DNA from: a virus
Length of the DNA: 64,000 nt
Strand: one strand, 5' to 3'
Virus record (IMG/VR): IMGVR_UViG_3300031566_000001
Span: 1 to 64,000 of that record
Shown here: piece after piece, positions 15,831 through 18,470 of the stretch
Position numbering within the stretch: the first letter of the stretch is position 1
Layout: every line of letters starts with the position of its first letter
Notes under the pieces: model-generated
What the model saw: the letters and a program-made list of their open reading frames with translations, nothing else
Database searches by the model: none
Told to the model about the DNA's origin: nothing
Translations under genes and position numbers: made by a program

Positions 15831-18470
15831 ATGCGTGTCCAGATGGTGCCGGGGGAACGGTTTTTCCGTTCGCATGAAAGCGGCATAAAAAGGGTCGTGG
15901 AGGCGTACTGCAAGCACCTGCCGGAATTCGGCATAGAGATAGTCACCGAGGACGTGAAGGACTACGATGTCAAGGCGGTGCACGCAGGGATGGCCCCGGA
16001 TTGCGACGTGGCTCATCTGCATGGTCTTTACTGGACTTCTGATTATGAGGCCTCTGCTTGGGAGTGGAAGGCCAACAGCGGCGTGATCGGTAATCTCCGC
16101 GTAGCCAGGGAGGTTACAGTACCCTCGGAGTGGGTGGCCATGACCATCAGGCGGGATATGCGCATTCAGCCCCACGTGGTGCCTCACGGCATCGAGTGGG
16201 ATGAGTGGGCACATCACCACGAGAAGAGCGGCGGCTACGTGCTATGGAACAAGAACCGGGACGCCGACGTGTGCACGCCGTGGCCGATGGCGGACCTGGC
16301 CAAGACGGCGCCGGAAGTGAAGTTCATATCTACCTTTGCGCCACCCAATGCGCCCGATAACGTGGAGGTCATCGGGTTGCAGCCCTACGAGGGCATGAAG
16401 CTGTTGGTGCAGGGCGCGGGGGTCTACCTGAGCACGACCAAGGAGACGTTCGGGATCGGCATCCTGGAGGCGATGGCGGCGGGGGTGCCGGTGCTGGGGT
16501 TTGCGTGGGGCAATATCGGGAACCTGGTGCACCACCAGGTCAACGGCTGGCTGTCTATGCCGGGGGACTTCGACCATCTACGTGAGGGGTTGGAGTACTG
16601 CGTGCAGCACCGGGAGCGGCTGGGTGAGGCTGGCCGCGAGATGTCCAAGCACTACCGCTGGAGGGAGGTCTGCAAGCAGGTGGCGGGGGTCTACGAGCTG
16701 GCGGCGCGGGAGCATCTGGCGAACGTGGCGGTGATCATCCCCAGCCACAACTACGCGGACCGGGTGGGGCAGGCCATAGAGAGCGCCCTGGCACAGACCT
16801 ACAAGGGCCTGACGAACGTAGTAGTGGTAGATGACGGGAGTGAGGACGACGGGGCCACGGGGCAGGTTGTGGCAAAGTATGAGGAGCAGGACAGCCGGGT
16901 GCGGTACATCAAGCAGCAGAATCAGGGTGTGGCTGTGGCGAGAAACAGGGGCATTGACAGCGTCGATACGGAATACGTCTGTTGCCTGGATGCGGACGAT
17001 GCCATAGCGCCTGAGTTCCTGAGCAGGTGCATCAGCCCGTTGGAGGAGGACCGGTCTTTGGGGCTGTCGTTTACGGGCCTGTGGGCAGTGACCCCGGACG
17101 GGAAGGCAGGTCAGTCCCAATGGCCTGACGGCTACGACTTCGAGCAGCAGTTGGCGCGGCGTAACCAGGTGCCCACGTGCTGCGTGTTCCGCCGGGAGGC
17201 CTGGAAGCGGCTGGGCGGATACCGGAAGCGGTACTGCCCAAACGGCGCGGGCAGCGAGGATGCGGAGTTCTGGACTCGGATGGGGGCCTATGGCTGGGGT
17301 GCGGTGCAGGCCACCAAGGAGCCGCTGTTCATGTACGCCCTGGGCACAGGCCACGTGACGGCGCTCCTAAAAGAGGGCAACTATCAAGAGCCGGACTGGC
17401 TGGCCTGGCACCCCTGGGTTCAGGATAGGCAGTTTCCTCTTGCTTGTCTGGCAGAGCCGAAGCGGTTCAGTCATCCGGTGCGGGCTTATGACACGCCGTG
17501 GGTGAGTGTGATCGTGCCTGTGGGTCCGGGCCATGAGGAGATCGTGGTTGACGCCCTGGACAGTTTGGAGGCGCAGACCTTCCGGCAGTGGGAGTGCGTG
17601 CTGGTGAATGATACGGGGCAGCCCCTACCTGAGCAGCTATTGAGGGCATACCCCTACGTGACACTGGTGGAGACGCCGGGGAACAAGGGCGCGGGTTATG
17701 CGCGAAATAGGGGCGTGGAGGTAGCGAGGTCTCCCTTGCTCACCTTCCTAGATGCAGACGATTACATGCAGCCGGAGTTCCTGCGGGTATGCGTGGAGAC
17801 TAGGTTGCAGACTGGCAGTTGGATCTATACTGATTTGTGGTCGGCATGGCCCAACGGCGAGATCCACGAGTACCAGGTGGATGACTTCGACGTGACTAGC
17901 TTGTGGCAGGACGGCTTGGGGGCGGTGACAGTGATTATTGACCAGGCCGAGTTTCAGGCCGTGGGTGGCTTCGACGAGGAGCTGGACACGCGGGAGGATT
18001 GGGATTTTCAGTTCAAGCTAGCCATGGCGGGCTTTTGCGGTGTGCGTGTGCCTCAGCCCTTGGTGACCTACCGCCTCGCTACGGGGGAGCGCAGGGAGAA
18101 ACAGGCTAGTGATACCGCGGCCATGCTGAGGGAGAAATATGACCTGGAGGGCTTAAAGGTGGCGTGCAAACCATGTTCACAGAATGCCAGGGTTATGAAT
18201 ACCGTGTTGCCGCAGAGCTGGAGCACCAAGGAGGAGGAAGGGTTCGTACAGTTGAAGTACGTGGGCAAGAACCGGGCCACCTCTACATTCAAGGGTGTTT
18301 CAGGGCGCAATTACCGGTTCGGGAACAACGATGATGCGCGGATTGCCTGGGTGCATCCGGAGGATGCTATCAACCTTGTAGACGTAAAGCACCAACCATT
18401 TGAGCGCGTGCAAGCGTTGACCCAGACGCAGGGTCTGCCTACGGCGCTGATGGCCCCGGTTTCAGGATAA
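15831..18470 (+). CDS. Three-domain glycosyltransferase (GT4-like + 2 GT2-like) with virion-type tail
   Basis: 879 residues with AAAGGAG upstream. Domain 1 (about 1-290) is GT-B/GT4-like, with the C-terminal nucleotide-sugar motif ETFGIGILEAMAAGVPVLG near 205. Domain 2 (about 295-530) is GT-A/GT2: VAVIIPSHN, VVDDGS and CLDADDA. Domain 3 (about 555-780) is a second GT2: VSVIVPVGPG, FLDADDYM and TREDWDFQ. The last ~90 residues (FVQLKYVGKNRATSTFKG..GRNYRFGNN) resemble small phage head-tail proteins rather than any transferase. It lies between coat and tail genes in the structural operon, which suggests it glycosylates a virion protein or travels with the particle; both are inference. Confidence 0.85.
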   Translation: MRVQMVPGERFFRSHESGIKRVVEAYCKHLPEFGIEIVTEDVKDYDVKAVHAGMAPDCDVAHLHGLYWTSDYEASAWEWKANSGVIGNLRVAREVTVPSEWVAMTIRRDMRIQPHVVPHGIEWDEWAHHHEKSGGYVLWNKNRDADVCTPWPMADLAKTAPEVKFISTFAPPNAPDNVEVIGLQPYEGMKLLVQGAGVYLSTTKETFGIGILEAMAAGVPVLGFAWGNIGNLVHHQVNGWLSMPGDFDHLREGLEYCVQHRERLGEAGREMSKHYRWREVCKQVAGVYELAAREHLANVAVIIPSHNYADRVGQAIESALAQTYKGLTNVVVVDDGSEDDGATGQVVAKYEEQDSRVRYIKQQNQGVAVARNRGIDSVDTEYVCCLDADDAIAPEFLSRCISPLEEDRSLGLSFTGLWAVTPDGKAGQSQWPDGYDFEQQLARRNQVPTCCVFRREAWKRLGGYRKRYCPNGAGSEDAEFWTRMGAYGWGAVQATKEPLFMYALGTGHVTALLKEGNYQEPDWLAWHPWVQDRQFPLACLAEPKRFSHPVRAYDTPWVSVIVPVGPGHEEIVVDALDSLEAQTFRQWECVLVNDTGQPLPEQLLRAYPYVTLVETPGNKGAGYARNRGVEVARSPLLTFLDADDYMQPEFLRVCVETRLQTGSWIYTDLWSAWPNGEIHEYQVDDFDVTSLWQDGLGAVTVIIDQAEFQAVGGFDEELDTREDWDFQFKLAMAGFCGVRVPQPLVTYRLATGERREKQASDTAAMLREKYDLEGLKVACKPCSQNARVMNTVLPQSWSTKEEEGFVQLKYVGKNRATSTFKGVSGRNYRFGNNDDARIAWVHPEDAINLVDVKHQPFERVQALTQTQGLPTALMAPVSG

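Follow-up and report, generated by a model that had tools for sequence, protein, structure and literature searches.

A 64,000-nucleotide stretch of a viral genome (IMG/VR record IMGVR_UViG_3300031566_000001, positions 1 to 64,000; hereafter the window) contains a gene that appears to encode two proteins in one reading frame. The gene occupies positions 15831..18470 (all features described here lie on the plus strand) and its open reading frame (ORF) is open and intact, predicting an 879-residue triple glycosyltransferase with a C-terminal module. Most likely, a free form of the module is translated as well, from a conserved start codon and Shine-Dalgarno (SD) sequence of its own that lie within the gene. 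We consider it probable that this is a two-product gene, which would yield a free head/neck-type protein together with the same protein tethered to a transferase that docks on the assembling head to glycosylate it. The domains, their intact motifs, the conserved start signals, the stand-alone modules, and the synteny are read from the sequence; we infer that both products are made, that the module is present in the virion, that the enzyme docks, and that the virion is glycosylated.

An initial annotation of the window had described one GT4-like and two GT2-like domains joined in a single chain between coat and tail genes, and both parts of this description were borne out. Glycos_transf_1 (PF00534) matches residues 174-270 (3.5e-13) and Glycos_transf_2 (PF00535) matches two stretches (9.9e-49), the best at residues 301-457 and the second at ∼558-750, with both Pfam families above cut-off. 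The GT4-type domain spans approximately residues 1-290 (15831..16700), the first GT2 domain residues 299-510 (16725..17360), and the second GT2 domain residues 557-770 (17499..18140). In an alignment with ten members, the E-x7-E motif of the GT4 domain (E205 and E213), the D387-A-D-D390 and E476-D477 motifs of the first GT2 domain, and the D641-A-D-D644 and E722-D723 motifs of the second are invariant among the relatives. Because these catalytic motifs are invariant, all three active sites look functional. The gene is preceded by a terminase gene (phrog_9, 3e-38) and followed by a tape measure protein gene (22128..24650; phrog_4372, 8e-18) and distal-tail-type genes.

To find relatives, IMG/VR was scanned with the protein and with alignments, and the relatives recovered on many contigs were reduced to 89 non-redundant proteins (<85% identity), which represent a large family of uncultivated phages. 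Across these relatives the gene order is kept as capsid, sugar genes in some cases, transferase, connector, a 503-residue protein, a 184-residue protein, and tape measure. An arrangement that recurs in ∼89 non-redundant proteins with conserved gene order is far from chance. In many relatives the gap between the capsid and transferase genes holds genes that read as aminotransferase, epimerase, sulfotransferase, and methyltransferase. A scan of a genome collection returned one distant match to the GT2 region and no whole-protein relative, and a tblastn search of named phages gave partial glycosyltransferase matches only (<60% identity), with no mycobacteriophage among the organism counts.

The evidence for a second product comes from the junction between the transferase and the module. 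In nearly all relatives, the transferase part ends at a sharp boundary where a Met occurs shortly ahead of a Cys motif. In the window, this boundary coincides with an in-frame GTG at position 18159, with the SD sequence GGAGG (18146..18150) located 8 nucleotides ahead of it. The predicted short product (18159..18470) has 103 residues and consists of the Cys motif followed by an SH3-like barrel. A sister copy of the gene, 83% identical, keeps the SD sequence and starts with an ATG one codon earlier.

Start-site statistics were compiled for 81 fused, non-redundant members (<85% identity). A start codon lies 1-4 codons ahead of the first Cys in 78 of them (ATG in 69, GTG in 6, and TTG in 3), two more have an ATG five codons ahead, and L067 alone lacks one; at random positions in these genes, a start codon is present in this way in 21% of cases. 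The predicted duplex between the anti-SD sequence and the region upstream of the internal start averages −8.7 kcal/mol, as compared to −3.6 kcal/mol at 1400 other in-frame ATGs, and an SD core of at least five bases is present at 76% of the internal starts versus 5% of the other ATGs. The internal SD is stronger than that of the transferase's own start (−7.0) and similar in strength to that of the capsid genes (−9.1). Local folding is weaker at the internal start (−6.5 versus −10.0). The residue that follows the start is Ala, Gly, Ser, Pro, Cys, or Thr in 78 of 78 cases, the pattern expected where Met is removed, whereas only 44% of other in-frame Met residues are followed by one of these or Val. 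All nine substitutions of the Met are GTG or TTG codons, and the position of the start drifts by at least one codon while the SD stays. Start codon, SD core, and small residue occur jointly in 59 of the 81 members versus 0.4% of matched control positions, on which basis a chance start codon was rejected. The same three features are found in all six fusions of the module to single- or double-domain transferases (L271, L277, L278, L279, L289, and L294), which lie outside the counted set.

Since Gly, Glu, Lys, and Arg codons can mimic an SD sequence, the seven codons upstream of the internal start were recoded synonymously 200 times. This null gave a mean of −6.83 with a spread of replicate means of 0.26 and a lowest value of −7.64, as compared to the observed −8.70, and the SD core appeared in 38% of the recoded sequences. 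Amino-acid bias alone was thus rejected as the source of the SD. Because the observed SD exceeds all 200 synonymous replicates, the codon choice upstream of the internal start is, across the family, evidently selected beyond amino-acid content.

Additional support comes from relatives in which the module occurs on its own. A module or module-like ORF follows the transferase as a separate gene in L041, L043/L063, L056, L073, L065, and L198. In L069 and L214 the transferase carries a module-like tail that has no internal start, and one and two separate copies, respectively, are also present, beginning Met-x-Cys or Met-x-x-Cys. The L214 locus (8045-11079) has three modules in a row, the transferase tail without an internal start and then small ORFs beginning MGCGC and MGCRC. 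By a count with a hidden Markov model, a separate module ORF accompanies 1 of 74 fused members that have the internal start and 5 of the 8 others (Fisher 1e-5). In L255 and L287, a gene for the module by itself lies between genes of the capsid and connector types (labels that are positional), and no such transferase is present in the stretch. Because members without the start usually carry a separate module and L255 and L287 carry the module alone, the free module looks to be required, with the internal start apparently supplying it where the two are fused. As for the split gene of L065 (8858-11070), an HNH-like ORF, identified by eye, sits just 5′ of the second part of the transferase, which suggests insertion of a homing endonuclease or intron.

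The initial annotation had also likened the final ∼90 residues to a small phage head-tail protein. The separate modules of the head-region type in L255, L287, and the split relatives speak for this. No match to a known head-tail family was obtained for the window form: the C-terminal ∼105 residues of the ORF have no match of their own in Pfam or PHROGs, and the module in this form has no real match in Pfam, PHROGs, PDB sequences, or known phages. An AlphaFold2 model of the short form contains a five-stranded SH3-like barrel and one helix over residues 28-85 (18240..18413), with predicted local distance difference test (pLDDT) values mostly >90 in the barrel. Its matches to known structures are weak. 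A Foldseek search with the short form gave no match with an E value under 0.04 in either the viral or the PDB libraries, and the nearest PDB fold, a GINS-type barrel with a Z of 4.5, is too weak to use. The one PDB sequence match, to 9y6s (E 0.0015), was set aside as weak and located in a leucine-rich repeat protein. The modules of relatives often carry an additional helix-hairpin-helix, and for relatives with this tail the sequence and PDB fold matches fell on that common motif and were discounted. The head-tail connector family phrog_748 matches the modules of 3 of 46 relatives (best E 0.0055). Gene 113 of HCTV-1 is a possible, if thin, candidate for a stand-alone relative of the module, as it immediately follows the capsid gene of that virus and its length equals that of a weak Foldseek match; the haloarchaeal viruses HGTV-1 and HJTV-4 yielded no convincing stand-alone module.

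Our current hypothesis for how the gene works is as follows. Ribosomes initiating at 15831 would produce the 879-residue triple glycosyltransferase ending in the Cys/SH3-like module, and those initiating at the conserved internal site would produce the 103-residue module alone. The free module would be a head/neck-type protein of this phage group, because L255 and L287 carry it as a separate gene flanked by genes of the capsid and connector types. The fused copy could then let the transferase replace a module, or bind beside one, on the assembling head, where the docked enzyme would glycosylate head-region proteins with sugars possibly prepared by the tailoring genes of the phage itself. A bolder version, which we hold only tentatively and think less likely than not to apply, is that the two products, long and short, assemble together into a protein ring or shell of the virion that bears a few covalently attached, active triple transferases. 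If so, the particle would contain or display a glycosylation enzyme encoded by the phage itself, and the two start sites would determine how many copies it bears.

Several observations weigh against the two-product hypothesis. The SD of the window, taken alone, is no stronger than its amino acids predict in the synonymous null, and the case for the internal start therefore rests on the family. The sequences counted above are not independent, as just two changes on the tree suffice to account for the start-bearing group, and loss or split events are few. In L067, neither an internal start nor a separate module was detected. Finally, no known fold or family matched the module with confidence, and the capsid and connector genes are named by their position.

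It could be argued that there is no internal start and that Met-x-Cys-x-x-Cys is merely a conserved protein motif, given that the Cys motif is itself conserved and that the codons upstream can resemble an SD. We regard this as very improbable, since the Met is exchanged for alternative start codons only, the start moves while the SD stays, the codon choice favors an SD beyond the amino-acid content, and several relatives encode the module as a separate ORF that has a start of its own. If the free module is made, it might be not a virion protein but an additional binding subunit, which associates with the full-length transferase and adjusts how active it is or how it binds its target. The gene is laid out like those of CTP1L and LysIME-EF1, in which the C-terminal product, made on its own, joins the complete enzyme (PMC4777826, PMC7098653), and this is the strongest of the alternatives, although it remains doubtful to us because L255 and L287 have the module between capsid-type and connector-type genes with no such transferase.

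Slightly less plausible is that neighboring genes simply lost the stop codon between them, that nothing beyond a free module and a functional transferase is of importance, and that the join itself has no function. The existence of split versions that appear viable fits this explanation, as does the module's retention of its own start. It is weakened by the persistence of the in-frame join in ∼80 deeply diverged lineages, with only two state changes needed on the tree, and by the joining of shorter transferases to the same module. Alternatively, the transferase could act on host surface sugars, in serotype conversion or superinfection exclusion, and not on the virion. The PHROG matches do include GtrB-like O-antigen conversion families, but they span the GT2 domains only, and the gene is located among the late structural genes, with almost all relatives having it fused to a module that belongs to their cluster; we consider this explanation improbable. 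The two-product gene, with a transferase that would dock on the head, is our preferred reading.

The neighbors of the gene are consistent with a structural cluster. A probable major capsid protein gene (14270..15769) lies upstream, and a conserved 420-residue gene, a probable head-tail connector (18477..19739), comes right after the module. Both assignments are based on position and conserved synteny only, as no family or solved-structure match was found for either protein, and the 420-residue protein has no match among known phages. The 503-residue protein of this cluster (19754-21265) has weak, sub-threshold Pfam matches to BNR/YCF48-type repeats. Further downstream, positions 33567..49019 hold sugar/tailoring genes interspersed with other ORFs; Pfam matches there are to epimerase, NKWYS, and three Methyltransf_24 domains, with weak matches to GT10 and sulfotransferase. 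This region is a possible supplier of modified sugars. Other features of the window include a single chain that combines an SNF2-type helicase region with a DNA methylase domain (45418-47757) and an ORF that by eye resembles a TnpB-type (IS200/IS605) protein (62421-63632).

The 143-kb record contains a second, related structural cluster at positions 89265-93446, ∼75 kb from the copy at 14270-18470 (L013 and L298). The capsid-type proteins of the two copies are 91% identical and the transferases 83%. Because proteins matching each copy are found on separate contigs elsewhere (L001 and L003), the record may join two related phages.

In-frame internal starts are already known, and the present case would place one in the setting of virion assembly. 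Our searches of the open-licence literature turned up no phage glycosyltransferase gene reported to contain such a start, and no report of a start of this kind that links a glycosyltransferase with a protein of the head type. Because gene callers that permit a single start in each frame miss nested in-frame genes, this phage group as a whole probably has a conserved protein of the head region that is concealed within annotations of "glycosyltransferase." In phage lambda, an in-frame internal start within the head gene C gives rise to Nu3, which corresponds to the C-terminal part and acts in assembly of the head. The lambda pair consists of a protease and a scaffold, whereas the enzyme here is a transferase and the sequences are unrelated.

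In the mycobacteriophages Che8, Corndog, and Myrna, transferases encoded by the phage add glycans to the capsid and tail tube proteins, according to the account of Freeman et al. 2023 given in PMC12363180. The enzyme described here is likewise a phage-encoded glycosyltransferase, for which virion glycosylation, a property of theirs, is predicted. For those enzymes (Che8 gp110, Corndog gp38, and the Myrna enzymes), that account describes no joining to a module of the head type and no internal start of the kind seen here. The fusion suggests a concrete and testable way in which a phage sugar enzyme could find its virion target, namely that the enzyme would be joined to one copy of a protein of the virion type, with translation setting the ratio.

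The closest parallel is with phage endolysins that are made as two polypeptides from single genes, namely CTP1L, CD27L, and LysIME-EF1, for which the short product was proven experimentally (PMC4777826, PMC7098653, PMC9430671). As in these endolysins, a modular phage enzyme has a C-terminal binding module and an in-frame internal ribosome binding site and start at the domain boundary, and the free C-terminal product known for them is predicted here from the sequence. Unlike in the endolysins, the catalytic domains are glycosyltransferases and do not cut peptidoglycan, the gene lies in a structural cluster, and the module also stands alone in phages that lack the enzyme. The gene described here would thus carry the two-polypeptide arrangement, of which endolysins are well-described cases, into the assembly and modification of virions.
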